Shown here one piece after another: positions 24 to 32,377 of a DNA stretch of 50,463 nucleotides (the stretch's first letter is position 1; every line of letters starts with the position of its first letter). The position numbers and the translations under genes are program-made. The notes below the pieces were generated by a model. That model did not search any database, was not told where the DNA came from, and worked only from the letters and a program-made list of their open reading frames with translations. Origin of the DNA: an uncultured Erysipelotrichaceae bacterium (GTDB lineage: Bacteria; Bacillota_I; Bacilli_A; RFN20; CAG-826); assembly GCA_900317165.1 (NCBI GenBank), contig ONFU01000016.1, positions 1-50,463 of the forward strand, in the 5' to 3' direction.

Positions 24-1617
<1,594 letters not shown>

Positions 1618-1621
<4 letters not shown>

Positions 1622-5294: not shown

Positions 5295-5577
5295 GAACGA
5301 GGAGAACGTCTTCACCGTTTGGGTCAACTTCTACCGATTCGATGAACAGGGCAACAGGATCTCTTTCCCGAGGAAGGAGAAGCTGCGCCTCGAGGTCGTC
5401 AAGGTGGAGGTAAGCGTCGGCCTTTACGCCAAGAAGAAGGCGACGATCCGCTTTGCGGACGGAACCCACGTCGGGCCCTTCGACTTCATATCGAAATGGG
5501 ACGTCAGGAACCGGAAGCAGCAGGTCGCCGCGGATTACATGAAATGGCTTTGGAAGCGGGAAAGGGGGATGCGGTGA
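5287..5577 (+). CDS. Unknown early protein, 96 aa
   Basis: A 96-residue basic protein with alternating strands (FTVWVNFYRF, KLRLEVVKVEVSVGLYAK, KATIRFADGTHVGPFDF) and a basic C-terminal helix. It could be a small nucleic-acid or protein adaptor, but nothing proves this. It sits directly upstream of the helicase, and its TGA overlaps the helicase ATG. Confidence 0.55.
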   Translation: MPKNEENVFTVWVNFYRFDEQGNRISFPRKEKLRLEVVKVEVSVGLYAKKKATIRFADGTHVGPFDFISKWDVRNRKQQVAADYMKWLWKRERGMR

Positions 5578-6929
5578 TGCCAGATCAAACAGAGAAGAAA
5601 ACGCTGGTCCTCCCCGGCTATCCGGAATTGGAGAGGGCGCTGATCGGTGCTTGCCTCGTCGCGAACGACGTGGGCCCCAGCATCGTCTGCGGGGCCTTGT
5701 CCAAAAGCGACTTCACCGATTCCAGGTGCGCCGTGATCTTCCAGTCGATGCTCGCCATCCACGGGAGGGGAGGGGAATTCGACGCCCAGACGCTGGCGGT
5801 CGAGCTCGACTCCAAGGGCATGTCGTCGACGGTGACCCAGGAATTCGTCTATACCTGCGTCGATTCGACGCCGATAAACCCCGACTGGACCTTCGAGCAC
5901 CACGTCAAGCTCATCAAGAACGCCTCCGTCGCCAGGACCCTGATACTGGCATGCAGGAGGGTCGCCGGATCCTTCGACGAGATCTCCGCGAAATCCGACG
6001 GATGGGAATCCTTCTCGGAGACCGTCCGCTCCAAGGTCAATGAGATCTGCGACGGCAACTCCACCGAGGCGTTCATGACGGCCAAGGATGCCGCCGAGTC
6101 CGCTTTGGAGGAGGTCATCGCCGCCAAGGAATCGTCCAAGAACGGCCTGATCGGGGCCACGACCGGCCTGATCGGGCTCGACAAGCTCACCCACGGCTGG
6201 CAGCCGGGGCAGCTCATCGTCATCGCCGGCAAGTCCTCGATGGGCAAGTCGGCCTTCGCGGTCCATTCGGCCTACGCCGCCGCCAAGTCCGGGGCGGAGA
6301 TAGCCTACTTTTCACTGGAGATGTCCAATTCCTCGAACATGAAGAGGATCCTCTCCAACGAGTCGATGGTCACCACTGAGAAGATGGTCTCCGGATTCGC
6401 GAGCCAGAAGGAGCTCGAGATCCTCAAAGGGGCCGCCGCCAAGGTCGGATCCACGCCCATGTGGCTGACCGACAGGCTCTCCGGCTACGAGGAGATCTCC
6501 GCCGCGATAACCAGGCTCAAGGCCAGGAGGCCTGGATTGAAGGTGGCGTTCATCGATTACCTTCAGCTCATGTCAACCAATCAGAGGGGCCTTACCAGGG
6601 ACCGCGAGATCGGAATCCAGACGGGAGGCCTCAAGCGCCTGGCGAACAAGCTGGGGATAGCCATCGTCCTTCTGTCCCAAGTCAACCGCGGCACCGGAAA
6701 CGACCGCCCGACGATGGACAACCTCAGGGAGTCCGGCAACATCGAGCAGGACGCCAACGTCGTGGTCTTCGTCCACCGTCCGGACTACTTCGACAAGGCG
6801 GGGCCCCAATCCACGGTCTCGAAATCCGAGATCATCGTGGCCAAGAACCGCGAGGGGCAAACCGGGATCATCAAGGCCTCGTTCAACAAGGCGACCAGCA
6901 GCTTTGCCGATATCGCCGACGAAAAATAA
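5577..6929 (+). CDS. dnaB: DnaB-type replicative helicase
   Basis: A 450-residue hexameric replicative helicase of the DnaB/RecA-like fold. The N-terminal domain begins PELERALIGACL. The ATPase domain has Walker A GKSSMGKS (about 218-225), the strand FSLEMS, Walker B IDYLQLM (about 326) and LSQVNRG followed by DNLRESGNIEQDANVVVFVH, all standard for DnaB. The length is typical. The ATG overlaps the upstream stop. Carried on the element beside a replication-initiation-like gene, it shows that the element replicates autonomously and does not only jump. A host copy would be expected elsewhere. Confidence 0.95.
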   Translation: MPDQTEKKTLVLPGYPELERALIGACLVANDVGPSIVCGALSKSDFTDSRCAVIFQSMLAIHGRGGEFDAQTLAVELDSKGMSSTVTQEFVYTCVDSTPINPDWTFEHHVKLIKNASVARTLILACRRVAGSFDEISAKSDGWESFSETVRSKVNEICDGNSTEAFMTAKDAAESALEEVIAAKESSKNGLIGATTGLIGLDKLTHGWQPGQLIVIAGKSSMGKSAFAVHSAYAAAKSGAEIAYFSLEMSNSSNMKRILSNESMVTTEKMVSGFASQKELEILKGAAAKVGSTPMWLTDRLSGYEEISAAITRLKARRPGLKVAFIDYLQLMSTNQRGLTRDREIGIQTGGLKRLANKLGIAIVLLSQVNRGTGNDRPTMDNLRESGNIEQDANVVVFVHRPDYFDKAGPQSTVSKSEIIVAKNREGQTGIIKASFNKATSSFADIADEK

Positions 6930-6942
6930 GGGAGAAAACGAA

Positions 6943-7860
6943 ATGAAGAAAGAAAACAACGAGTACTTCTATTACTCGAAGCTCTACGAAGACACCTTCG
7001 ACGCGACGGGATGGAAGCTGATCTTCAGCGAGATGCAGCCGATACCCGCTTACGCGACGATGATCTACTTCGTCATCCTGACCGAATCGACGGCCGCCCA
7101 AGGAATCCTCCTGAGGGCAAAGGACAGGGCTTATACGGAAGAGCAGCTCATGGCCCTCTGCGGCATCCGTTCCAGCGACCCGGAGGAGATAAAGTCCTCC
7201 TGGAAGAAGGCCTATCGGATGCTCATCGACGAGAGGATCATCGCCGTCCACGAAGACGGGGCGATCGAGGTCATTTTGGCCGACGAGCTCTTCGGCCAGG
7301 ACTCGAGATCCGCCAGGATGAAGCGGAAATACCGAGGAAGGGTCCGCTCTCTGACCTCGGAGGACGAGCAAGAGACAGAAGAAGGACAAAGCGAGGACAT
7401 TTGTCCGCCTATTGTCCACGAAGGGGAAGTCATTTGTCCACCGAATGACGGACAAATGAACGCCCATGTCCAAAAACATGAAACTCCCCTTAATGAAGAT
7501 GAATCTTCTTCTAATCCCCTCAAGAGCAAAGAGAAGAGAGTAAAGGCGCCGCCGGTCATCCGACCGTCGGACGCCGCTGCTGAATTCGTGGATATCTATC
7601 CGAAGAAAACGGATCCGGAGAAAATCCTGAAAGTCATCGAGGGATTCAGCGAGGAAGAGCTCCAGGCGCTGCTACTGGCTGCCCAAAGGACGGCCAAGGA
7701 TCCCTCCAAGGCCGAGCAGAACGGCCGCTTCGCGATGGATCCCGTCAAATTCGCGAGATCCAAACCCTGGACCGAGGAGGAGCTCGAGGCCGCGGCCGAC
7801 ATCCTCTGGGGAATCCGGGAATCGATAAAGCTGGAAGGGAGCGAAGGCGATGTGGAGTAA
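6943..7860 (+). CDS. Replisome-organiser-like replication protein
   Basis: A 305-residue protein. Residues about 1-120 look like a winged-helix domain of phage replication initiators (WKLIFSEMQPIPAYATMIYF, EEQLMALCGI, AYRMLIDERIIAVHEDGAIE). A low-complexity acidic linker follows, then a helical C-terminal domain (EEELQALLLAAQRTAKDPSK) as in DnaC/DnaD-type loaders. It is 13 bases after the helicase gene with GGGAGA upstream. The linker codons contain iteron-like repeats (7384-7471), as in lambda gene O, where the origin lies in the initiator gene. Binding of origin and helicase is inferred. Confidence 0.65.
   Translation: MKKENNEYFYYSKLYEDTFDATGWKLIFSEMQPIPAYATMIYFVILTESTAAQGILLRAKDRAYTEEQLMALCGIRSSDPEEIKSSWKKAYRMLIDERIIAVHEDGAIEVILADELFGQDSRSARMKRKYRGRVRSLTSEDEQETEEGQSEDICPPIVHEGEVICPPNDGQMNAHVQKHETPLNEDESSSNPLKSKEKRVKAPPVIRPSDAAAEFVDIYPKKTDPEKILKVIEGFSEEELQALLLAAQRTAKDPSKAEQNGRFAMDPVKFARSKPWTEEELEAAADILWGIRESIKLEGSEGDVE
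7384..7471. repeat. Iteron-like cluster, candidate replication origin
   Basis: The motif CATTTGTCC occurs at 7398-7406 and 7431-7439. Variants are ATTGTCC (7411-7417) and CATGTCC (7465-7471). Reverse copies are GGACAAA (7384-7390) and GGACAAATG (7450-7458). Direct copies are offset by 11 and 22 bases, so they lie on one helix face, and 7431-7458 is an inverted repeat. A relatively A/T-rich stretch follows (~7475-7545). The repeats fall within the replication-protein linker. The origin role is inferred. Confidence 0.5.
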
Positions 7861-10597: not shown

Positions 10598-11137
10598 ATG
10601 GCAGAAAAGAAAAAGAAAGCGAACGTCAGGGGAATCGTCGCGGCAGCGGCTTCTTTGATCGTGGTCGGCGGTTTCGTCGCGGGTTTCTTCGCTCTGAGGA
10701 ACGCCCTGACTTCCAAATATTCCGTCGACAAGGAGGCGGAGCAGCAGAAATGCTTCTTCGTCGGGACCTTCGTCGACGACGATTACCCGATCAACGTCCA
10801 TGTCTCCCTCATATCACCGGATGGGTCTTTGAGGGACAGGACGCTGCAAAAGAAAGACTTCGACTACAACACATCCGGCCAGCAATCGACCGAGACGGTG
10901 TGGTGCGACCTCGCATCCTTCGCCGCGGAAGCGACGGGAGGGAAGCGCATCGACGATTGGATCGACCAAGGCGGTCAGATCCTTTTTGACTCCACCCAAA
11001 ACGGCCAGACGTCCGAAACAAAGGATTGCTCGTGGGGAGGAGGGGCATACCTCGTCCATAATCCTGACGAAAAAATGGAGATCACCGTGGAATACGTCCC
11101 GGTGACGGTTTACATCGCGGAGGACTACGTCCTATGA
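10598..11137 (+). CDS. N-terminally anchored exported protein, 179 aa
   Basis: A 179-residue protein with a lysine-rich start, one membrane segment (about 12-33) containing GGFVAGFF, and an extracytoplasmic beta-type domain. The segment lacks a clear signal-peptidase site, so it is probably an uncleaved anchor. Similar Gly-Gly-x-Val-Ala-Gly anchors begin the proteins at 17555 and 20712. AAAGGAG precedes the ATG. The following gene overlaps its stop. Confidence 0.6.
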   Translation: MAEKKKKANVRGIVAAAASLIVVGGFVAGFFALRNALTSKYSVDKEAEQQKCFFVGTFVDDDYPINVHVSLISPDGSLRDRTLQKKDFDYNTSGQQSTETVWCDLASFAAEATGGKRIDDWIDQGGQILFDSTQNGQTSETKDCSWGGGAYLVHNPDEKMEITVEYVPVTVYIAEDYVL

Positions 11138-12774
11138 GAAAACTTTTCATTACCTGCCTCGCTTTGGGATCCATCCTTTCCGCCCCGGCGGCGGCTTTGG
11201 CCGTCTCCGGATCCTCGGCAATCATGGCGTCCGCGGAAAGCGAGCAGACCGACATCACCGCGTCGGATCCGTTCCACGACCTGACGCTGATCTACCTTGA
11301 CGGCGATATGTCGAAATTCACCGGGCCGAGCGACTTCCTCAGGAAGGACCGCCCGAACGACTATTTCCAGGTATGCGGATATCGGCCCTGGAACGAGGAC
11401 CTCTACATCTACCTCTATTTCAACAACGCATCGAAGATATTCTCCGGATTCAATGAATCCTACGACTATGTCGGGCTCTTCACGGTCTATGAAAAGGGGG
11501 AAGGCAACACCATCGCATCCAAGACGACCAAAACCTACGATCTGCATGAAGTCGGAACGAGATGGAAATCCGGCGCCCAAAGCTCCGGAGGACCTTACTA
11601 TTTCGTCAAAATGAAGGTCGAGGGGATCTTCGAGGGAGCCGGAGTAGGAAGCGCCTACGATGTCTGCTTCAGGGAACTCGGGATCATGGCCGGCCAGAAT
11701 GGGGATCTTTTCTCGAAGCTTTACGACGTCGAGGAGGAGTATTCCTTCAACTACGACCGGGACAATTACGACATCACCGCGAAGTGGTGGGCGAACAACG
11801 CCGTCAGGATGGATGCCAAAGGAGTAGTCAGGATGACGAAGCAGCACGACGGTTCCTATTACAGCCTGATCGGGATGAGAAACTATGTCCCGGTCTCCGG
11901 CTATTTTGAGGACTTCTTCGTCTTTTTCAATCTCGACAGAACCCCAAGTCAGATCCTATCCGTCGACTTCTACTGGACCGAGGTCACCTTCTACGGGTCG
12001 GCCGTCAAAAGCTGGAGGGACGACGCCTTCGACGTCCTCGATTCAAGCACATACGGCGACAACAACGTCCCCTTCACCGCGGATGAGGTCGGATTTACCT
12101 ACGAGGTCGGAAACGAGATTGAGGAAAAATACAAAAACACCGAATGGGCCACGAAGACCAAGCAACGATTCCATACGGTCAAGTCGGACCAAACGGTGAT
12201 CCACGGACAAACGGCGACTTCGTTCCTGCCTCCATTCACCGTTAATAGAAAAGTCGAAACTCCAGAAATACTGAACCTTTCCGCCCTCGATGTTCAACTG
12301 ACTGGATATGCCGCCGCCGATCAAAAGAACTGGCTGTCAAAGCAAGGCTCCGGGTATAAGTACGCATCCTTGATCAACGGCGACGAGGAGCTGATCTGCG
12401 ATTGGACAGACAAGCTCGACCGCGCCGACAGATACTATTCCCCGAGATTCCCTCAGGTATGGAATTTCAGGACAGATTATTATTATCTCTACGAGGCCCA
12501 TGCCGCATTGAACACCTATGCCCTGAAGATGGTCGTCAAAGACGAGAAAGGCCAAGAGGCTTCCTGGAACGTCTTCAACCACGCCGTCGAAATCGTGGAC
12601 CACGTCGGCATGGCGACTCATGACGTCACTTTCGAGGAATGGCTTGTCTACGTCAAAAAACATTTCGGCGACTGGCTCGTTCCGGTGATCCTGGCGGCCT
12701 ATTCCGTCCTGGCGGCGGCATCCGTTATCCTCCTGACTTCCGCCATCATGAAGGCGGGGAGGAAAAAGGACTGA
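11134..12774 (+). CDS. Exported surface protein with C-terminal membrane anchor
   Basis: A 546-residue protein with a signal peptide (about 1-23, ending AAALAVS), a large ectodomain rich in Tyr, Asp and aromatic strands, and one C-terminal span (about 517-540) followed by the short basic tail KAGRKKD. This topology matches filamentous-phage adsorption proteins of the pIII type and many monoderm surface proteins. No enzyme or adhesin family recognised. It overlaps both neighbours and lies two genes upstream of the membrane ATPase. The virion role is inferred from gene order. Confidence 0.6.
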   Translation: MRKLFITCLALGSILSAPAAALAVSGSSAIMASAESEQTDITASDPFHDLTLIYLDGDMSKFTGPSDFLRKDRPNDYFQVCGYRPWNEDLYIYLYFNNASKIFSGFNESYDYVGLFTVYEKGEGNTIASKTTKTYDLHEVGTRWKSGAQSSGGPYYFVKMKVEGIFEGAGVGSAYDVCFRELGIMAGQNGDLFSKLYDVEEEYSFNYDRDNYDITAKWWANNAVRMDAKGVVRMTKQHDGSYYSLIGMRNYVPVSGYFEDFFVFFNLDRTPSQILSVDFYWTEVTFYGSAVKSWRDDAFDVLDSSTYGDNNVPFTADEVGFTYEVGNEIEEKYKNTEWATKTKQRFHTVKSDQTVIHGQTATSFLPPFTVNRKVETPEILNLSALDVQLTGYAAADQKNWLSKQGSGYKYASLINGDEELICDWTDKLDRADRYYSPRFPQVWNFRTDYYYLYEAHAALNTYALKMVVKDEKGQEASWNVFNHAVEIVDHVGMATHDVTFEEWLVYVKKHFGDWLVPVILAAYSVLAAASVILLTSAIMKAGRKKD

Positions 12775-13154
12775 TGGGAGCCCTAAGGCACGACTCCATC
12801 CCGGCGGAGAAAAGGAAGAAGTTCTTCGTTGGGATCCTCGTCATCGCCCTCATCGGGGTATCCTTCTGGTACCTATCGTTCAGCTTCGCCGGCCTTTTCG
12901 GAAGGTCCGTCGATTCCGTCAGCAACACCGAGTGGGTCTCATGGAACGTCGGGACCCTCTATTTCGGAGAGACGACCGGAACCTACAACGACTCCAAGAA
13001 AACGACCTTCTTCCGCTTCGAGGAGCAATCCGGATCCGTTAAGGTCATCGTGGAGGAGAAACTCTACATGGCTTTGACTAGGGTCAACGACAACAAGATC
13101 ATCACCTCCGACGGCATGAGCGTCTTCTATCTGAAGGGGGAATGGTCCAAATGA
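12774..13154 (+). CDS. Small membrane-anchored protein, 126 aa
   Basis: A 126-residue protein with a basic start, one long hydrophobic segment (about 18-43) and a beta-rich outer part (STEWVSWNVGTLYFGETTG, VKVIVEEKLYMAL). The ATG overlaps the upstream TGA, and the ATPase start overlaps its stop, so translation is probably coupled. The position between surface protein and ATPase corresponds to the small minor coat gene of inoviruses, but no sequence similarity is claimed. Confidence 0.55.
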   Translation: MGALRHDSIPAEKRKKFFVGILVIALIGVSFWYLSFSFAGLFGRSVDSVSNTEWVSWNVGTLYFGETTGTYNDSKKTTFFRFEEQSGSVKVIVEEKLYMALTRVNDNKIITSDGMSVFYLKGEWSK

Positions 13155-15598
13155 TGGGCTTCCTCAGGAGAATCGGATCCGCCATCGTCTACTTCGCCCG
13201 GCAATGCGTCCGGGTCTTTCTGCTTCCTTTTGGATTCTTCCTCAAGGGAAGCGGGGCATGGGATTGGGCCAACAGGGACGAGCCGACGGATCCGAAAGAG
13301 AAATCAATCCTGAGAAGGATCAGAACCTTCAGGTACCTTTCCCTTTTGTCGCTGGTCTCCCTGGCCTCGTTGATGATCCTGGTTTTCGGGTGGCCCTTCG
13401 AGAGGGCGGGGAGCAGCTTCCGGTATCTATGGCAATCCATCCAATTCACCTTTGGAAACTGGACCGCCGCCGAGGAATTGTCGCCTCCGGACATCAGCAA
13501 CGCAACGATGGAGCAGTTCGATGGGATTCTGGCGAACATCAAGAATTTTTGGTATTACCTGCAGCTTTGGATCGGGTGCCTGACAAATCCGGACATCGCG
13601 AAGGAGTGGGGCCATGAGTTCCTCGAATGGATTACCAACGTCCTGCGCTTCGCGACGTGGATCCCGGTCGGCATCTTGGCATTCTACCTCCTGACGTCGT
13701 CGATAACAGCGCCTCATCCGGGGGAGGATATCTCCAAATCGGCGATCCTTTCCTGGTGGGATGAGCGATTCGTCCCGATAATCTTCAGGCCAGCGAAGAA
13801 TTTCATCCTTGATTTCCTGGATTATTTCCGGTCCAGCAGATGGGTTAAATGGACCTTCTGGATAAGCTTTGGCGTCCTCTGCCTTTGGGGGTGGACGGCC
13901 TTCGACGTCATCGCCAGTTACCTGCTGATGATATTCACGTTCGACTTCGGATGGTTCCCGACGTTCGCCGCCTCAGCCTTCGTCGACGTCGTGGTCTTCT
14001 TCGTCAGGATCGGCGCAGTCGGCACGGCCGCCGTCATCCTCCTCCTTCTGTTCAAGGCGATCAAGAAGGCGGCGATATCGAAGATCATGCAGATGCAGGC
14101 GATCAACGAAGAGGTCGCGGAGTCCCTTCCCGTAATAACCGCGATCAACGGGGCCGTCGGGACCGGGAAGACGACTATGATGTCCTCCATCGCCTACGAC
14201 GGCGACTCTTTGACGAGGGATTACTACCTTTCCAGGATGAAGACATATGCCGCGGCCTTCAACGTCTTCCCTTGGAGGAAGCTTGAGCTTTGGGTGATCG
14301 CCCAGCAGAAGGTCAAGGATGAGAAAAACAGGCTTAATACCAGGGCGAAGATCAGAAGGGTCATCCTCGACCTCTACAAACGATGGAAGGATGCCCATTT
14401 TGCCTATTGCATGGAGGATGGAAGCGAGTACTTCTTCGGCTATGATCCTGAATTCGGAATCGAATGGGACAACGGCGCGGAAGTGGTATCACTGGCACAC
14501 GCGGCGGCAACCTACGCGGAATGCTATTTCATGTACCATTTCGGTTTGAAGCTCGTGACGTCAAATTACCCGATTGGCTTCAAGAACGGCCATGGAGGGG
14601 ATTTCTTCCCCGTTTTCGAGCCCGCCGGGTCTTTCATCACGAAGCCAGACGACGCCGAGAATGTCGCCTACAGCGGGGTCCTCAATATGGACTTTTTCCG
14701 CATTCTGAGGCAGATGGATCCATCCGACGATGGCCGCCTTGCCTCGATCGACGGCGGGTTCATCGCGATGACGGAAGCCTCCAACGAGAGGGGAAACCGC
14801 TTCGATTACGTCGGCAAGAAGAAAACCGACGGCGAGGCGAACCCGCTTAACGATGGCTACAACCAGTTCATGAGGATCACCAGGCATCCTTTCACCGTGG
14901 ATGGGAAGCCGACGGTTAAGGTCATCTACGACTATCAGCGAGGAGATTCCATGAACGCGGAAGGCAAGGATTCCGCAGAGGATACGATTTTGATTATGCA
15001 AAGGGGCGACGAGGACAACGCTTTGGCCCTTTGGGGCGTCACCGAGACGGTATGCCTCTTCTTCGAGACGTGGTGGACCAACTTCTATTGGTACACATGG
15101 AGGCCGAATAGGGGCAAGGAAACGCTTCTTACCCGTTTTTTGGGAAGGATCTGCGGATTCTTCATCAACGTCCGACAGAAGCTCCGCTACCGATACGGCT
15201 ACGAGACGATCGTCTTCAACCGTGAGCACGGCGGAATGAACGGATTGACCGGAAAGAGGACGATGGAACAGTATTTCGTGATTTACAAGAAGACCAGGGG
15301 AGGGCTGTTCAACACGGCCGTTTATGGCCCTATCGTGGAGACCTCGTCACTGGCCGCGAAGAAGGGATGGGCAGAGGCCCCGAGGTTCTCCTCGATCAAT
15401 GGGAATTGGGATGAATTCAAGGAGCAGCACAGCTATTTCTTCGAGAAGCTCGCAGGAACGTATGCCGACCTCTCCAAGGGAAAGCCGGCCGAAAGACTCA
15501 AGGCCGCCCAGACGATGGGCACCGACACGCCTTTCCAGAAAGGAGACACCGACACGCCTTTCCCGGAAGGAGAAGAGGATCCTCCGGACGACGATTGA
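13151..15598 (+). CDS. Polytopic membrane P-loop ATPase, Zot-like assembly ATPase candidate
   Basis: An 815-residue protein with four or five membrane spans in the first ~305 residues, then a cytosolic P-loop ATPase (Walker A GAVGTGKTT near residue 337), the Zot-like element TSNYPIGF, and IDGGFIAMTEA as possible Walker B region. Such ATPases power export of DNA or protein; filamentous phages use the Zot/pI family for extrusion. Classical Zot proteins place the span after the ATPase and are shorter, so this is a variant or a different export ATPase. The C-terminal tail has a repeated TDTPF motif. ATG 13151 fits the GGGGG site better than 13142. Confidence 0.6.
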   Translation: MMGFLRRIGSAIVYFARQCVRVFLLPFGFFLKGSGAWDWANRDEPTDPKEKSILRRIRTFRYLSLLSLVSLASLMILVFGWPFERAGSSFRYLWQSIQFTFGNWTAAEELSPPDISNATMEQFDGILANIKNFWYYLQLWIGCLTNPDIAKEWGHEFLEWITNVLRFATWIPVGILAFYLLTSSITAPHPGEDISKSAILSWWDERFVPIIFRPAKNFILDFLDYFRSSRWVKWTFWISFGVLCLWGWTAFDVIASYLLMIFTFDFGWFPTFAASAFVDVVVFFVRIGAVGTAAVILLLLFKAIKKAAISKIMQMQAINEEVAESLPVITAINGAVGTGKTTMMSSIAYDGDSLTRDYYLSRMKTYAAAFNVFPWRKLELWVIAQQKVKDEKNRLNTRAKIRRVILDLYKRWKDAHFAYCMEDGSEYFFGYDPEFGIEWDNGAEVVSLAHAAATYAECYFMYHFGLKLVTSNYPIGFKNGHGGDFFPVFEPAGSFITKPDDAENVAYSGVLNMDFFRILRQMDPSDDGRLASIDGGFIAMTEASNERGNRFDYVGKKKTDGEANPLNDGYNQFMRITRHPFTVDGKPTVKVIYDYQRGDSMNAEGKDSAEDTILIMQRGDEDNALALWGVTETVCLFFETWWTNFYWYTWRPNRGKETLLTRFLGRICGFFINVRQKLRYRYGYETIVFNREHGGMNGLTGKRTMEQYFVIYKKTRGGLFNTAVYGPIVETSSLAAKKGWAEAPRFSSINGNWDEFKEQHSYFFEKLAGTYADLSKGKPAERLKAAQTMGTDTPFQKGDTDTPFPEGEEDPPDDD

Positions 15599-15600
15599 AA

Positions 15601-15640
15601 ACAACCCGAATCCGCTTTAGCCCGGCTTCGGGTTTTCAAT
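15601..15640 (+). terminator. Identical hairpin terminator, copy 2
   Basis: Same 40 bases as the copy at 9963, beginning three bases after the ATPase stop codon. The extended outer stem (ATTGAAA with TTTCAAT) is again formed with the stop codon. It separates the membrane/export module from the cluster of basic proteins. Confidence 0.8.
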
Positions 15641-15663
15641 TTCGGAAAAGGAGGCAGAAAACC

Positions 15664-17258: not shown

Positions 17259-17449
17259 AGCAAAAGCAGCGCCTCGAGCTCTCCCAAAGGCGGCACGTTC
17301 GGCTATGGAGGGAAACGATGAGGGGAAGCCGGAACGACTCCCTGAACCATTCCTATCACGCCAGGGCGATAGCCGACCAGTCAAAGAAGGGCAGGATCCT
17401 CACTAAGAAGGAGAAGAAAGCCCTCTATTCCAGGCTCAGAAGGAAATAG
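17255..17449 (+). CDS. Small basic protein 6, 64 aa
   Basis: A 64-residue Arg/Lys/Gln-rich helical protein (LSQRRHVRLWRETMRG, ending KKALYSRLRRK). It overlaps the upstream stop and is followed at once by terminator copy 3. Function unknown; last of the basic cluster. Confidence 0.5.
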   Translation: MKQKQRLELSQRRHVRLWRETMRGSRNDSLNHSYHARAIADQSKKGRILTKKEKKALYSRLRRK

Positions 17450-17454
17450 AAAAA

Positions 17455-17494
17455 ACAACCCGAATCCGCTTTAGCCCGGCTTCGGGTTTTCAAT
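17455..17494 (+). terminator. Identical hairpin terminator, copy 3
   Basis: Same 40 bases as copies 1, 2 and 4, five bases after the last basic-protein gene. Here the outer stem extension is weaker, because the flanking bases are A-rich rather than a GATTGA stop context. It isolates the DGR cassette from upstream transcription. Confidence 0.8.
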
Positions 17495-17554
17495 TCCCTA
17501 TAAGGAAAGCGACTCCGTCAGGGATCGCCACCGAAACAAATAAGGAGGCTTACA

Positions 17555-19207
17555 ATGCCAAAGAAAAACTCCAAGGCCAAGACCGTTATCCTGGTGTTGG
17601 CAACCGCATTGATCGCAGGCGGCGCCGTCGCAGGCGGATTCGCGATCAAGAAATACGTCGACGAGAACGCCATCTCGATGCCCTGGACCGATAAGCAGTT
17701 CGAGGGTACCTACGCCGGCGTCAGACTCTATAACGACGGAGACCACGATCCGGTCCGACTCGGGGCCGCGGCGGAATTCAAAGCCGGCGTGAACGGCGAA
17801 CGGAACGATTTCGACGCCTACCCCGTCTATTCCGCGATGAAGCAGAAGAAGAGGGGCAGCGACATCGTCGTCACGATCCCCGAGCACTACGTGAAGACCA
17901 TCGCGACCTCCACATACACCGACTACATGATGGCGTCTACCAAGCTCGACGACACCTGGCTCAAAGTGCCCGCCCACGACGTCGGAGCCTACAAAGGCAA
18001 CGTCACCTTCGATTCCAAGAACAAAGGCACGATGCATTCCCAAAAGGACGCCTACCCTTCCTTCAATTTCACCAAAGTGGAAGGCACTGACTACGCGAAG
18101 AACGGCGGCGGGTTCATGACCACCTACACCGAGGCGATGGACCTCAACTACCTCATGACGATCGAATTCGCCACGAACAACCTCGAGGACGTCTTCTCCG
18201 GATTCAAATCTGCCCACACGCTCGAGGATCTCGCATTCGACATCGACCTTCAGAAGACCGGCAAGACGAACGTCGTCCGCATCGCCGCCGAGGCCATCAA
18301 CGAGAGCTTAGGCGACAACAAGCTCAACGAGGTCATCATCCCCGGCTTCACCAGCTTCTGCATCCAGGAATCCGACGGCTACGTCTCTTCCGACATCGCC
18401 ACCGTCACCGCGGTGAAGAAGACCAACATCCAGGTCGAGGCGCAGGCCTCCTCCTCCGCTTCCTCCTCGCAGGAGGCTGAGACCGAGACCGTCAACGTCT
18501 ACGAGCTCACCATCGACAAGACCATCAACTTCGAGGACGAGGAGAAAACCCTCGTCAACCGCTGGAAGGCCCGCCAGGTCGCCGACGGCAACGAAGATCC
18601 CGACGAGGGCGACATGGCCGATCCGCTCATCCAGCTCGGCAACTACGTCAAGAACGGCCTCACCGACGGCCTCAAAGGCTCCTCCAACGAGCTCAAGGCC
18701 TTCAACGGCGTCGACCTCCCCAAGGGAATGCGCCCGTTCAGCTACCGCGGCATCGAGAACTGGTACGGCGGCCTCTACGAATGGCTTGACGGCGTGCAGA
18801 CGAAAGCCGTCAGTTCCGAAGACGCGGAAAAAGCCGGAAACTTCCTCCAAGTCTGCGACGACAAGGAGCTCATGGGCGAATCCAATGCCCCGGACGCAAA
18901 GACGCCGGATTACAAAACCGCCTTCAGCGTGACCTCCGGCAACACCTCCGGATGGATCTCCGGATTGGCCGAGGGAAACGAGACCAACCCGTTCATCATC
19001 GCCGGGCTTCAGAACAACGAGAAGGGATCGCTGAACGACTATCTCAATATGCCCGGATTCAGCACCGACAGCGAATCCGTCACCCTTCGGCCCGTCTATC
19101 GCGGCTCCGACTGGAGCGGCGACTCCAACTACGGCGCGTTCTGCCTCTACGGCCTCAACGACTTCTCGACTTGGGGCTGCATCGTCGGGGCTCGCCTCGG
19201 ATTCTGA
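17555..19207 (+). CDS. DGR target: membrane-anchored protein with variable C-type-lectin-like end
   Basis: A 550-residue protein whose last ~40 residues are diversified by the adjacent retroelement. It has a lysine-rich start, an anchor span (about 10-31, AGGAVAGG), a large ectodomain, a Ser/Glu linker (ASSSASSSQEAETE near 305-317), then a region typical of DGR C-type-lectin/sulfatase-like ligand domains (GMRPFSYRGIENWYGG near 391). It ends in the variable repeat (RGSDWSGDSN to IVGARLGF). Variable codons fall mostly where the template has AAC, so binding-surface residues change while the scaffold stays. AAGGAGG precedes the ATG. It probably recognises a host or partner receptor; the ligand is unknown. 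Confidence 0.9.
   Translation: MPKKNSKAKTVILVLATALIAGGAVAGGFAIKKYVDENAISMPWTDKQFEGTYAGVRLYNDGDHDPVRLGAAAEFKAGVNGERNDFDAYPVYSAMKQKKRGSDIVVTIPEHYVKTIATSTYTDYMMASTKLDDTWLKVPAHDVGAYKGNVTFDSKNKGTMHSQKDAYPSFNFTKVEGTDYAKNGGGFMTTYTEAMDLNYLMTIEFATNNLEDVFSGFKSAHTLEDLAFDIDLQKTGKTNVVRIAAEAINESLGDNKLNEVIIPGFTSFCIQESDGYVSSDIATVTAVKKTNIQVEAQASSSASSSQEAETETVNVYELTIDKTINFEDEEKTLVNRWKARQVADGNEDPDEGDMADPLIQLGNYVKNGLTDGLKGSSNELKAFNGVDLPKGMRPFSYRGIENWYGGLYEWLDGVQTKAVSSEDAEKAGNFLQVCDDKELMGESNAPDAKTPDYKTAFSVTSGNTSGWISGLAEGNETNPFIIAGLQNNEKGSLNDYLNMPGFSTDSESVTLRPVYRGSDWSGDSNYGAFCLYGLNDFSTWGCIVGARLGF
19084..19205 (+). repeat. DGR variable repeat (VR)
   Basis: These 122 bases are the 3' end of the target gene, in register with the template repeat at 19361-19482 (offset 277). 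The two differ at 16 positions, and every one is A in the template (to G ten times, T in four or more cases, C in the rest). No C, G or T of the template is changed. The final ~18 bases before the last codon (TCGGGGCTCGCCTCGGAT) are unchanged and G/C-rich, as expected for the initiation-of-mutagenic-homing region. Confidence 0.95.
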
Positions 19208-19217
19208 GGAGATCTTC

Positions 19218-19259
19218 AGAGGGGTCGCGAGGGGAAACCTCCCTTCGCATAACCCCTCT
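19218..19259 (+). other. Hairpin just downstream of VR
   Basis: AGAGGGGT (19218-19225) pairs with ACCCCTCT (19252-19259), with an inner stem (GCGA with TCGC, GGG with CCC). It starts 11 bases after the target stop codon. In the Bordetella phage DGR a DNA hairpin just after the homing site stimulates retrohoming; this could do the same, or act as terminator of the target gene. It lacks a T-run. Confidence 0.5.
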
Positions 19260-19272
19260 TCCGATTGAAATT

Positions 19273-19309
19273 GGGTATTGATAATACCCCCCCCCGAACG
19301 AATTAGAAT
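19273..19309 (+). promoter_or_regulatory. Hairpin, C9 tract and possible TR promoter
   Basis: A perfect hairpin GGGTATT-GAT-AATACCC (19273-19289) runs into nine consecutive C (19287-19295). TAGAAT at 19304-19309 matches the -10 box used at 2154. No well-spaced -35 is clear (TTGATA at 19278 gives a 20-base spacer). A promoter for the TR RNA is expected somewhere here. A second hairpin (GGGTGC with GCACCC, 19322-19340) lies just before TR. Confidence 0.3.
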
Positions 19310-19360
19310 TATCTTCATCAAGGGTGCGACCGGGGCACCCGCGATCCCCGTTTCGTTGGG

Positions 19361-19482
19361 CCTTCAGCCCGTCTATCGCGGCTCCAACTGGAACAGCGAC
19401 TCCAACAACGGCGCGTTCTACCTCAACGGCAACAACGACTTCTCGAATTGGAACTACAACATCGGGGCTCGCCTCGGATACT
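19361..19482 (+). repeat. DGR template repeat (TR), non-coding
   Basis: A 122-base template lying between the target gene and the reverse transcriptase, on the same strand. It has 30 adenines, concentrated in AAC triplets that align with variable codons of the target (read in the target frame it would give NWNSDSNNGAF). Adenine-only differences from VR identify it as the RNA template for mutagenic retrohoming. Homology to VR ends at 19482, where the first non-adenine difference appears. Adjacent sequence up to 19596 is leader for the reverse transcriptase. Confidence 0.95.
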
Positions 19483-19596
19483 CATACCGGCAAAGCCACA
19501 TCACCGCCCCGGCCATCCTCCCTGCACGGGGAAATCGCCGGAAGAGCGGGCCTAGTAGGAAACTCGAAAATCCCGCAAGGCCAACAGAATCACCAC

Positions 19597-20628
19597 ATGA
19601 AGAGAACTGGCCATCTTTACGAAAAGCTCTTCGACCTAAAGAACATCGAAGAGGCGCTCCTTGAGACCTGCGAGCACAAAAGCAAGCGCAGGATCGTGCA
19701 GAAGATCAAAGCCGACCCGAAGCATTACGCCAAAGAAATCAAGCGGATGCTGGAGGAAGGCTTTTTTCCGTCGCCTCCGAAACGCTTTGAGAGGAGGGAT
19801 TCCGGATCCGGCAAGATAAGGAAGATCTGCAGCGTCCCGCTTTATCCCGACCAGGCGATACACCGACTGGCCGTCAACGTCATGAGGGAATCCATCGTCA
19901 GGGGCATGGATCCTCACTGCGTCGGATGCGTCCCTGGAAGGGGTTGTAACGCCGGGATGAAGGCCGTCCGGAAATGGGCCAGGAAATCCAGGAAGAAGAG
20001 GATCTGGGTCATCAAGGCCGACGTCTACCATTACTATGAGAACATAGACCGGGACAAGCTCTTCGATATGCTTGAGACGGTGATAAAGGACAAGAGGTTC
20101 CTGGTCTTCCTTTGGAACATCACGTCGATCGAGCCCAAAGGCCTTGCCATAGGGGTCTACTCATCGCCCTGGCTTGCGAATTTCTACCTGCAGGGGATCG
20201 ACCATTTCCTGAAGGAGAAGGCCGGATTAAAACACGTTGTCAGGAACGTCGACGACTACGTCTGGATGGATCCGTCGAAAAGGCGCCTTCTGAGGGCCAA
20301 GGCGGCCGCGGACGGGGAATTGACCAAGCTCGGCCTGAAACTCAAGCCAGACTGGCGGATATTCGCCCTGAGGGGCAACGACGTCGACTTCGTGGGATAC
20401 CGGATCCATTACGATGGGAAGGTAACCATAAGGAAGAGGACGTGGAAGAAGCTGCGCCGGGACTGCCTTATAGCCAAGCACCACAGGCTTTCCGCCAAAA
20501 GGGCGAGATCCCTGCTCTCGAGGATGGGCTACGCGATGAACTCGAACGGCAGGAAGATCTTCGAGAAATACCTGGACGGGAAAACGGTGAGGAAAGCAAA
20601 GGAAATCGCCAAGAAGGAAGATAAATAA
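19597..20628 (+). CDS. DGR reverse transcriptase
   Basis: A 343-residue reverse transcriptase of the DGR clade. The start MKRTGHLYEKLFDLKNIEEA is typical of that clade, and the size suits a stand-alone enzyme without maturase or endonuclease. Catalytic aspartates are D142 (IKADVYHYYENID) and D219-D220 (VRNVDDYVW). Motif 4 is LAIGVYSSPWLANFYL (183-198). Two deviations are notable: Asn precedes VDD instead of the usual Tyr, and SSP replaces the SQ usual in DGR motif 4. It copies TR RNA with errors at adenines to rewrite VR. ATG 19597 follows TR; only a weak ribosome site is visible. No Avd gene was found beside it. Confidence 0.92.
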   Translation: MKRTGHLYEKLFDLKNIEEALLETCEHKSKRRIVQKIKADPKHYAKEIKRMLEEGFFPSPPKRFERRDSGSGKIRKICSVPLYPDQAIHRLAVNVMRESIVRGMDPHCVGCVPGRGCNAGMKAVRKWARKSRKKRIWVIKADVYHYYENIDRDKLFDMLETVIKDKRFLVFLWNITSIEPKGLAIGVYSSPWLANFYLQGIDHFLKEKAGLKHVVRNVDDYVWMDPSKRRLLRAKAAADGELTKLGLKLKPDWRIFALRGNDVDFVGYRIHYDGKVTIRKRTWKKLRRDCLIAKHHRLSAKRARSLLSRMGYAMNSNGRKIFEKYLDGKTVRKAKEIAKKEDK

Positions 20629-20667
20629 CAACCCGAATCCGCTTTAGCCCGGCTTCGGGTTTTCAAT
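20628..20667 (+). terminator. Identical hairpin terminator, copy 4
   Basis: Same 40 bases as the other three copies, its first base being the last base of the reverse-transcriptase stop codon. It closes the DGR unit (17555-20628). Confidence 0.8.
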
Positions 20668-20711
20668 TTCCTAAGAACAGCGGATCCGTATCGGGCCGCG
20701 GAAAGGAGTTT

Positions 20712-22433: not shown

Positions 22434-22719
22434 GCTGCTTGCTTTTCTTTCGAAAAAAGACGGAAAACGAGGTCCCCCCCACGATTTCGGGAAGAATCCT
22501 CCACCGAGCTTCCAAAGAAAGAGAAAAAGAAGGGCAAAGAAAAAGCGGTTTTCCTTCCCTTCCTAAGCCGTCTCTTATGCGCGTGCGTTTAAGTGCGCGC
22601 GTTAACCTAATCTATTGCGGATTATCCCCTTTGCGGTTATCAATTCCGGAGGCAACTCCATCGAAAGAAGGATGGATCCGGGGAAAAAGTAACAATATTG
22701 GTGTTTATATTTCTTTGTG

Positions 22720-22729
22720 CGGTCCACCA
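22720..22729. repeat. Right attachment core (attR)
   Basis: CGGTCCACCA repeats the 3' end of tRNA-Lys (90-99). Immediately after it comes a strong terminator (22742) that fits a tRNA gene, so before integration the tRNA and that terminator were probably adjacent. This marks the right end of the element. Confidence 0.7.
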
Positions 22730-22741
22730 ACAACAAAATTC

Positions 22742-22778
22742 ATCCGAATCGCGCCACAACAGCGATTCGGATTTTTTG
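22742..22778 (+). terminator. Displaced tRNA-Lys terminator
   Basis: ATCCGAATCGC (22742-22752) pairs perfectly with GCGATTCGGAT (22762-22772), followed by T-rich sequence. No gene upstream in the element points to it closely. It is most simply the original terminator of the interrupted tRNA-Lys gene. Confidence 0.75.
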
Positions 22779-22784
22779 TTCATC

Positions 22785-22813
22785 TTGACGACTTATATTT
22801 ATGGTATTACAAT
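22785..22813 (+). promoter_or_regulatory. Promoter of the toxin-antitoxin pair
   Basis: TTGACG (22785-22790), 17-base spacer, TACAAT (22808-22813), 22 bases before the antitoxin start. The terminator end plus -35 stretch here (GATTCGGATTTTTTGTT, CTTGAC) is nearly repeated at 23350-23376 before the Fur gene. Confidence 0.7.
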
Positions 22814-22834
22814 GTCATACAAGGAGACAAAACC

Positions 22835-23053
22835 ATGGTTGTTTCAATCAGAATGACAGAAGAAGAAAAGGCGCTAGCCACATCCTACGCGAAAATTCGC
22901 GGCATGAGTCTAAGCGAAGCGATTAAGCGTGCATATTTTGAGGCCATCGAGGATGAATATGACATCGTTTTGGCGGATCGCGCCATGAAGGAATACGAGA
23001 AAGATCCAACAACGATCTCCCATGAGGAAATGCGAAAGGCACTTGGGCTTTGA
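22835..23053 (+). CDS. RelB/DUF6290-type antitoxin
   Basis: A 72-residue antitoxin. The ribbon-helix-helix N-terminus (MVVSIRMTEEEKALATSYA, then GMSLSEAIKRAYFE) binds DNA as a dimer, and the acidic C-terminal tail should wrap the toxin. AAGGAG lies nine bases before ATG 22835, which fixes the start inside a longer open frame. It is translated with the downstream toxin (overlapping TTGA) and is expected to autorepress its promoter. It lies outside the element's right boundary. Confidence 0.85.
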   Translation: MVVSIRMTEEEKALATSYAKIRGMSLSEAIKRAYFEAIEDEYDIVLADRAMKEYEKDPTTISHEEMRKALGL

Positions 23054-23316
23054 TTTATCACGTCGAATATTTGAAATCCGTTCTGAAGACGCTTGAGAAA
23101 ATGGATAAGTACACCAAGCGAATTCTTTTCGAATGGATTGATAAAAACCTTGAGGGCTGTTCTGACCCAAGGATTCATGGGAAAACCCTCTCAGCTAACC
23201 GAACGGGCCAATGGAGATACCGGGTTGGAGATTACCGAATAATCGCCGACATACAAGATGCCAAACTCGTAATTCTCGTGATTGCCGTTGGGCATCGCCG
23301 AGATATTTACGATTAA
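23050..23316 (+). CDS. RelE/ParE-superfamily toxin
   Basis: An 88-residue toxin of the RelE fold: helix (LKSVLKTLEKMDKYTKRILF), then GKTLSANRTGQWRYRVGDYR, strand IIADIQDAKLVILVIAVGHR, ending RRDIYD. This is the conserved core of the RelE group, which cleaves mRNA at the ribosome. It starts at TTG overlapping the antitoxin stop, which supports coupling and keeps toxin levels low. The pair lies between two near-identical terminator/-35 segments. Confidence 0.87.
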   Translation: MIYHVEYLKSVLKTLEKMDKYTKRILFEWIDKNLEGCSDPRIHGKTLSANRTGQWRYRVGDYRIIADIQDAKLVILVIAVGHRRDIYD

Positions 23317-23335
23317 GGATTTGAATCATGATAAA

Positions 23336-23363
23336 AGATCTGAACCAGCGGTTCGGATTTTTT
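23336..23363 (+). terminator. Terminator after the toxin gene
   Basis: TCTGAACC (23339-23346) pairs with GGTTCGGA (23350-23357, one G-T pair) around AGC, followed by six T. Confidence 0.7.
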
Positions 23364-30709: not shown

Positions 30710-32377
30710 TTGCTGTTTTCTGTGCAGGCAAGTTCACTTTGCGCCCTATCGTCACAAGATTCCCCTATTGATAAATATGTTTTGATCGCCGATTCTGTTT
30801 CGACCGATAACGTTGGATCTATAGTTGTTGATCTTATGTTTGATCATAAAGAAGAGGAAACCCTTCCAAGAGAGGAAAAGATTAAAGCTTATTCTTTGTT
30901 TTCTTCTGAAAAAGCCGAATCTTTGGAGAATATGGGATTTAAGGCTACTTATATTTCTCACGCCGTATCGATGCCCATAGTATCTTTACATTACCGGAAC
31001 GTATATTTGGATACAGTAACTTCAGATTTGAAAAAGAACCTACGATGTGATGATTTATTATCGATTTCAATAAGGGAAGACGCAAACTATGAGCCAATTC
31101 AACCTAACTATCAGGAGAATATGGTTGTCAACCATCAAAGATCAACCAACGATAGTTGGGTCGATTATAGAGATATCCAATATGACAATTATGAAGCAAC
31201 GACGTATTCTGGCTATGGTGTTAAAATTGGAGTAGCGGATTTGGGGCAAATATATATTACGCATTCGAATTTTGCTGACACCAATTTTGTTATAGATTCA
31301 TCGAATGTAAAAACCTCTGCTTCGAACATTGGTCACGGAGATATGGTTCTATCCGTGTTAACCGGAAAATATGGGCTTGCTCCAAGAGCATCGATTTATT
31401 ATGTGGACGCTACCGATCCTCAATATTCCGGTTACAAATATTTGGATTATTTTGCTACCCAGACGGTGGATGTGATAAATTTATCCGTTTCCTCTTCTGG
31501 TCTAGACAGTTGCAAATATATCAACTGGATTGTTGACAATTATCATATTCCTATCGTCGCTAGTTGTGTTAATAATCTCTCAAGTAATCTAGGTCAACCG
31601 GCCTGTGCACAAAACGTCATTTCCGTTTGCTCAATCAATCCCGACTATACAATCGCTTCTGGAACAAACATTAGGGATCCTAACGATTCTGTCGAAAACA
31701 ATTTTAGAATTGCCGCAACTGGAGGCCTTAGGCAGGTTAATGTCTATGGAAATGATCTTACTATTAGCGGGACAAGTCTTGCAACTCCGGCAGTGACCGG
31801 AACAATTGCCCTGATGATGGAAAAAAATCCGAACATGAAGGGCGACGTCGCCCTAGTTATGGCCGCTCTTGGCAACGGGGCGGACAATACGTTGATTGCA
31901 CATAATTCAAATTCATCGGTAACCGATTCGTATGATTCTTCAAGCGGACTCTATTCTTGGTCTGGAGTTGGGGCTCTCGACATAAAGCAATCATTATGGA
32001 TTGCTGGATTTGCGGCAACGCCAACATTTGAAGTCTCTCAAGGAAACGAAGCATATCTTTTTGATGTTGGAAATGCGCAAGTTGGCCAGCGTTTATATAC
32101 AACACATGCGTGGCTTCAAAGGATTACGCGCTACCATCTTTACGCCAATGTTTATCAATTTACCAGTTCGCCTTTGCCAAATCTAAATTTACGTCTTTAT
32201 AATTCTAACGGGGTAATTGTCTGGCAAACCACCTGTTCAAATACAAATATAGAACGTCATTTTTACACTTTTACTGCAAACGGGAATTATGTGATGAAAG
32301 TGTATTGTGCGTCCTCAAGCTATACCGTTTACAGTCCTTCCTCCCATTATAGTGTTGCTTGCCATAGGGCTATTTAA
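30710..32377 (+). CDS. Subtilisin-like (S8) serine protease, exported, uncertain N-terminus
   Basis: A subtilase with the full triad in order: Asp in GVADLG (about 177), His in GHGDMVLSVLTG (about 209) and Ser in GTSLATPAVTG (about 356), numbering from 30710. A C-terminal beta domain of ~150 residues follows. The frame opens with a signal-peptide end (LLFSVQASS) but no good start: TTG 30710 has no ribosome site. A better start (ATG 30669, giving MKQLKLLQVNMILLCCFLC) is in another frame, suggesting a one-base frameshift or decay. The gene is clearly more A/T-rich than its neighbours. It may be degrading or recently acquired; the mature enzyme region looks intact. Confidence 0.75.
   Translation: MLFSVQASSLCALSSQDSPIDKYVLIADSVSTDNVGSIVVDLMFDHKEEETLPREEKIKAYSLFSSEKAESLENMGFKATYISHAVSMPIVSLHYRNVYLDTVTSDLKKNLRCDDLLSISIREDANYEPIQPNYQENMVVNHQRSTNDSWVDYRDIQYDNYEATTYSGYGVKIGVADLGQIYITHSNFADTNFVIDSSNVKTSASNIGHGDMVLSVLTGKYGLAPRASIYYVDATDPQYSGYKYLDYFATQTVDVINLSVSSSGLDSCKYINWIVDNYHIPIVASCVNNLSSNLGQPACAQNVISVCSINPDYTIASGTNIRDPNDSVENNFRIAATGGLRQVNVYGNDLTISGTSLATPAVTGTIALMMEKNPNMKGDVALVMAALGNGADNTLIAHNSNSSVTDSYDSSSGLYSWSGVGALDIKQSLWIAGFAATPTFEVSQGNEAYLFDVGNAQVGQRLYTTHAWLQRITRYHLYANVYQFTSSPLPNLNLRLYNSNGVIVWQTTCSNTNIERHFYTFTANGNYVMKVYCASSSYTVYSPSSHYSVACHRAI

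Follow-up and report, generated by a model that had tools for sequence, protein, structure and literature searches.

The window analysed here is the whole 50,463-nucleotide stretch of contig ONFU01000016.1, from an uncultured Erysipelotrichaceae bacterium. It carries a diversity-generating retroelement (DGR) in which a target gene, a template repeat (TR), and a reverse transcriptase (RT) follow one another on the same strand (Table 1). The target gene ends in the variable repeat (VR), its stop codon directly follows, and the sequence beyond TR diverges from that beyond VR. Letter by letter, VR and TR aligned over 122 bp without gaps and with 16 mismatches. All 16 fell on adenines of TR, which has 30, and none on C, G, or T (hypergeometric P = 3.5e-12 that 16 of 16 hit A under random placement). 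Nine were A to G, five A to T, and two A to C. They alter 14 codons of the target, eight of which are AAC or AAT, each with a change of amino acid, and every mismatch lies in codon position 1 or 2. Read in the frame of the target, TR has 10 AAY codons; the other two frames have none. Substitutions at the adenines of TR can never yield a stop codon. The 1.66-Mb assembly contains no copies of this sequence besides TR and VR. By its anatomy, its adenine bias, and the homologies described below, this is a complete and structurally intact DGR.

The RT has an intact reading frame, and its catalytic aspartates are present within a recognizable RVT_1 domain. It likely starts at ATG 19597 rather than at the GTG 19324 set mechanically in the open reading frame list. 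Its best match in the PDB was 8ub7, which we take to be the Bordetella DGR RT, and in PHROGs it matched phrog_1423 (values in Table 1). In a tree of 16 enzymes, which included the RT of BPP-1 (bRT) and two Avd-linked RTs, it joined 13 other DGR-type RTs, away from two group II intron RTs, with support of 100/100. Branching inside the DGR group was mostly without support, and the window RT stood on a separate branch from bRT. Its xGxxxS motif reads IGVYSSP, with isoleucine as in other DGR RTs, where group II introns have glutamine. Matches in PADLOC reflected general RT similarity, and a defence-system assignment was dropped. The initial annotation, made from the letters alone, had described the adenine-only differences in a gapless 122-base alignment, the 14 mostly AAC-type codon changes, and a DGR-clade RT following TR on the same strand; all of these were reproduced.

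The cis elements expected around VR could also be located. The GC-rich 3' end of VR, identical to TR, is a possible position of the initiation of mutagenic homing site, and the hairpin directly after VR is a candidate cruciform for recognition of the target site. Retrohoming in BPP-1 needs a hairpin of this kind after VR. The spacer between TR and the RT gene is presumed to be part of the TR RNA; the region 19225-19600 folds more stably than shuffled sequence (z -2.8), and a scan with an RNA family library returned tRNA only. The window's DGR resembles that of BPP-1 (Mtd/TR/bRT/Avd) in the adenine-specific transfer from TR to VR, the place of VR at the target's C terminus, the hairpin after VR, the homologous RT, and the gene order on one strand. 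It differs in its membrane-anchored target, in a carrier without recognisable tailed-phage genes, in the separate RT branch, and in that Avd was not found. Three intergenic copies (86 to 93% identical; 15591-15646, 17445-17500, and 20618-20673) of a 56-nt sequence that resembles a terminator and has the core AACCCGAATCCGCTTTAGCCCGGCTTCGGGTT mark off the modules of the ATPase, the target, and the RT, with the DGR cassette lying between two of the three.

Related RTs occur in 7 of 224 genomes of the host family, the window's own included, and a blind scan found a TR/VR pair beside the RT at six loci of relatives. In these six DGRs and that of the window together, 113 of 113 TR/VR differences lie at TR adenines. 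A hairpin follows VR in all six relatives studied, and several share the same kind of core, which in L058 is GCGAAGGGG-AACG-CCCCTTTGC. Two of the six, L045 (G029:C19; 131 bp, 22 changes) and L054 (G201:C1; 113 bp, 11 changes), belong to tailed prophages, with tail genes around them; L043 and L044 lie beside the same ATPase gene as the window's DGR; and the remaining two are on short contigs. The tailed-prophage DGRs resemble the window's in target domains and in the post-VR hairpin, and L045 has the closest RT, at 37% identity; they differ in their site among tail genes, and the L045 target has no membrane anchor. No near relative with the same TR as the window was found. A candidate TR/VR pair in another relative (L089), weaker-looking than the window's, proved to be a leucine-rich-type repeat and not a DGR. 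Thus, a TR/VR scan alone can yield false positives, of which the window's pair is not one.

We next consider the target protein. Its N-terminal membrane anchor spans residues about 8-27. The C-terminal 180 residues match the PHROGs tail-protein family phrog_5302, and the end of the protein aligns with DGR-type proteins from IMG/VR, with the motif YRGIENWYG in common and VR falling on VR. A profile built from this alignment matched a single protein in the whole PDB, 5vf4 (1.4e-7), with the VR end included; this is TaqVP, the variable protein of a Thermus aquaticus DGR (PMC6328139). The target sequence alone gave only chance matches in the PDB. This match supports, by homology, a C-type-lectin-type fold of the target end; the sequence match is distant, and the anchor and the N-terminal half of the target are unmatched in TaqVP. 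An AlphaFold model of the last 272 residues, with 17 relatives in the alignment, reached a predicted local distance difference test (pLDDT) score of 39.7, so that the lectin fold is without structural confirmation. The targets of L043, L044, and the window are homologous over much of their length. The L045 target has the internal and lectin domains in common with them, with the anchor absent. Thus, the DGR module was probably exchanged between tailed phages and ATPase elements, with an anchor fitted to the membrane-based carrier. Judged by sequence, the target represents a tail-type DGR target in membrane-anchored form.

The carrier could be delimited exactly. In the sister genome G029, which is about 95% identical in the flank, the tRNA-Lys gene is joined straight to the right flank, and the window's two flanks, when joined, agree with this junction at 98% identity over 159 nt. 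The empty site defines an integrated element of 22.6 kb, from about 100 to 22729, with the whole DGR inside. Longer direct repeats had been considered as attachment sites and were chance repeats; the empty site fixed a 10-bp core instead. The initial annotation had placed the DGR on a mobile element, and the empty tRNA-Lys site bears this out; it had also proposed a membrane-anchored target with a C-type-lectin-like end, for which the anchor was located at the N terminus and the lectin type gained support from homology, while the fold gained none from the model. The recombinase gene extends past the attachment core and into tRNA-Lys of the host, and a circular form would give the enzyme another C terminus, longer by 30 residues (549 versus 519 aa). 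The 3' end of a tRNA gene is an uncommon site for a large serine recombinase.

Table 1. Features of the DGR and of its carrier element (window positions).
Feature	Position	Strand	Evidence
Target gene of the DGR, 550 aa; N-terminal membrane anchor, variable C-terminal lectin-type domain	17555..19207	+	homologous to L043/L044 targets over much of length
VR	19084..19205	+	very end of target gene; base-by-base comparison
GC-rich 3' end of VR, identical to TR, GGGGCTCGCCTCGGA	19187..19201	+	base comparison
Hairpin directly after VR	19218..19259	+	z -3.7 over 19190-19300
TR, noncoding	19361..19482	+	base-by-base comparison
Spacer between TR and RT, part of presumed TR RNA	19483..19596	+	sequence
DGR-type RT, 343 aa	19597..20628	+	PF00078 1e-12, 8ub7 1.6e-16, phrog_1423 1.8e-80, tree
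Left attachment core CGGTCCACCA, 10 bp, 3' end of tRNA-Lys	90..99	+	repeat search, empty site
Right attachment core CGGTCCACCA, 10 bp	22720..22729	+	repeat search, empty site
Large serine recombinase	62..1621	-	PF00239 9.7e-30, CcrB-like, element-family cluster 14 1.8e-106
DnaB-type helicase	5496..6929	+	library scans
Phage-type replisome organiser	6904..7860	+	library scans
Exported protein, 546 aa, signal peptide and C-terminal membrane anchor	11134..12774	+	lies where the family has its cluster-1 gene
Membrane-bound P-loop ATPase, 818 aa, hallmark of the carrier family	13142..15598	+	
Second N-terminally anchored exported protein, 398 aa	20712..21908	+	related to target's N-terminal half; conserved surface-protein cluster 4 (7e-26)

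Besides the DGR, the element encodes replication proteins, an LPD28 domain, the ATPase, and three exported membrane-anchored proteins (genes at 11134, 17555, and 20712). The 546-aa protein showed no homology to the family's cluster-1 protein by HMMER or hhalign. Most viral DGRs belong to ordinary tailed prophages, and the phage-type replisome organiser, the DnaB helicase, and a lectin domain of phage tail type would agree with such an origin. However, the exactly bounded 22.6 kb yielded no gene for terminase, portal, capsid, tail assembly, or lysis in searches of Pfam, NCBIfam, and PHROGs, and it has the gene block common to the ATPase family instead. We therefore regard a tailed prophage as very improbable.

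The ATPase linked the element to a group of related loci. An alignment query found homologues, whereas single-protein queries with the RT or the ATPase found none in the genome and viral collections. Within the host family, 25 other genomes encode relatives of the ATPase. The named genome collection gave 129 stretches with a relative, almost all of them from gut Clostridia and Bacilli. The virus collections gave one IMG/VR contig and one unannotated phage record, and there was no match among 72,556 plasmids. Around the ATPase lies a conserved block of genes for a 115-aa protein, N-anchored proteins of 370 and 197 aa, a protein of 450 to 740 aa with a signal peptide and a C-terminal anchor, the ATPase itself, and a 345-aa protein of the G2P rolling-circle replication type (PF23343 5.4e-13). 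The 370-aa protein, often duplicated, belongs to the family of the window's 20712 gene. In L043, the gene after the ATPase encodes a Rep_trans initiator (PF02486 1.8e-21). L044 (G142:C14, 16,108 bp) has a 55-bp terminal repeat and was interpreted as a closed circle of 16,053 bp; its own DGR spans the contig ends. The carrier belongs to an undescribed family of mobile elements with more than 100 loci in gut Clostridia and Bacilli. Of 93 ATPase loci, exactly three (the window, L043, and L044) have both an RT and the lectin domain, and the target-TR-RT cassette recurs only in these three ATPase elements with the lectin domain. As a further observation, the ATPase-centred loci L060-L141 combine surface proteins, the ATPase, and a rolling-circle Rep, and they scarcely appear in the IMG/VR, phage, and plasmid collections.

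The same data bear on whether the carrier might be a small integrative conjugative or mobilisable element whose variable protein recognises mating partners. Its integration at tRNA-Lys, its LPD28 domain, the failure to find capsid genes, and the Rep_trans protein of L043 would suit such an element; the Rep_trans fold is also used by some relaxases. Against this stand the plasmid result for the ATPase and the Pfam, NCBIfam, and PHROGs searches, which found no relaxase, VirB4, VirB6, VirD4, or other type IV secretion or transfer gene, though a much diverged relaxase could escape them. We consider a conjugative carrier unlikely.

Comparison with the inoviruses (Tubulavirales; PMC6813254, PMC8530359) revealed likenesses of another kind: the elements are integrative, a membrane P-loop ATPase stands beside G2P-type or Rep_trans proteins in the relatives, and small single-transmembrane proteins occur. 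The latter are the 69- to 71-aa proteins of L043 and L044, candidates for coat proteins; none was identified in the window. In contrast to inoviruses, the elements measure 16 to 23 kb, the window's replicates with DnaB, no coat protein was identified, and the ATPase, which has no Zot match in Pfam, has at least three membrane segments (hydropathy gives three in the window and as many as six in relatives). The inovirus pI protein has one or two membrane segments and Zot as its closest known domain (PMC6813254); the ATPase departs from these published criteria in its membrane segments and its Zot match. It was modelled at pLDDT 76, with a RecA-type core. Foldseek gave no significant match in the PDB and one unnamed viral model at 7.5e-5. 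Because its fold matches are tied and its sequence profiles are undecided, we call it, from sequence and model, an ASCE-type (additional strand, catalytic glutamate) membrane ATPase, of the kind used for DNA movement or virion extrusion, and do not file it as Zot.

With moderate confidence, we propose that the window holds a genuine DGR that diversifies a membrane-anchored adhesin of a virus-like, non-tailed, 22.6-kb integrative element. The RT would copy RNA from TR, placing random bases at adenines, and the resulting cDNA would take the place of VR, with the identical GC-rich end and the hairpin as guides. The last 40 residues of the surface protein would then vary with the reading frame staying open, and the outcome would be cells or particles with differing tips on an anchored surface protein. 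The N-terminal anchor would hold the lectin-like, ligand-binding domain at the cell or particle surface. The most likely use would be binding to changing receptors on recipient cells, a function that fits the module's use in tailed phages as well as in ATPase elements. We infer in this way the retrohoming activity, the fold of the target end, the surface exposure, the function in attachment, the virus-like nature, and the formation of particles.

Several observations weigh against this proposal. A virion protein was not identified on the element, which has DnaB and a replisome organiser in place of the rolling-circle Rep. The fold of the ATPase is tied between RecA/Rad51, FtsK, and the Zot domain 2r2a (Z 10.1, 168 of 191 residues); by sequence, its similarity to packaging and Zot ATPases is insignificant, with a profile match to 2r2a at E 0.3. 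The model of the target end adds to these points, as does the derivation of current DGR activity from a single genome. A search of the assembly, 84% complete, did not find Avd (PF05635, PF22296), though a diverged accessory might have escaped it; this accessory protein occurs in many DGRs, not all, and is not required. The motif IGVYSSP ends in proline, where the other DGR RTs compared have glutamine, and the catalytic motif is NVDD, not YxDD. These two RT motifs call for some caution over RT activity. Together with the Avd result, the single genome, and the lack of a near relative with the same TR, they would fit a genuine DGR that diversified VR in the past and then lost RT function. However, the RT frame and catalytic aspartates are preserved, LBR48 likewise has N before the xDD motif (NIDD), and the 122 bp show no drift outside adenines, whereas a long-dead TR/VR pair would have accumulated it. 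An inactive DGR is thus an improbable explanation.

It is also conceivable that the variable protein serves the host cell, in adhesion to gut surfaces or other cells or in the exclusion of other phages, and not the spread of the element. The target is membrane-anchored and no known virion protein accompanies it. According to PMC8144416, cellular DGR targets are often membrane-anchored adhesins, and the N-terminal anchor with a C-terminal variable lectin-type domain is common to them and the window's target. They differ from the latter, whose gene sits with the conserved surface-protein genes of a delimited mobile element. Moreover, the cassette recurs only with the element's ATPase, in three genera, and its target shares domains with tail-type targets of DGRs that lie in tailed prophages of the same family. 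Use by the host is therefore rather doubtful, if somewhat less so than a conjugative carrier or an inactive DGR.

Most known DGRs come from tailed phages, in which they act on tail proteins, and from bacterial chromosomes, in which they act on surface proteins. The window's DGR is itself of a known kind; new are its carrier and the membrane-anchored form of its target, which joins a phage-type variable lectin domain to a membrane anchor on a delimited element without recognisable tailed-phage genes. A bolder version of our proposal, which we advance only tentatively, is that the DGR diversifies the membrane-anchored receptor-binding protein of new, widespread non-tailed viruses of gut Firmicutes, membrane-bounded or filamentous, that catalogues have missed. 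Should the element family form particles, the result would amount to directed evolution of receptor binding in a non-tailed virus, and the ATPase gene would offer a handle on a large group of gut elements hardly present in virus and plasmid catalogues. The largest DGR survey ran an inovirus detector, and its main text describes viral DGR targets as mostly tail proteins. The literature consulted, which did not extend to the supplements of that survey, described no DGR in a non-tailed virus, and earlier sightings are possible.

Last, we noted three minor features of the window. The end of the ATPase gene contains a 27-nt tandem repeat (15520-15573) that encodes TDTPF-type repeats. A ribbon-helix-helix (DUF6290) protein and a ParE-type toxin are encoded as a pair immediately to the right of the element (22577-23316), in a stretch, about 22790-23345, that is absent from G029. 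Farther along, a subtilase gene (30710-32377) is mostly without a counterpart at the same place in G029, where the alignment has a gap between 30638 and 32017.

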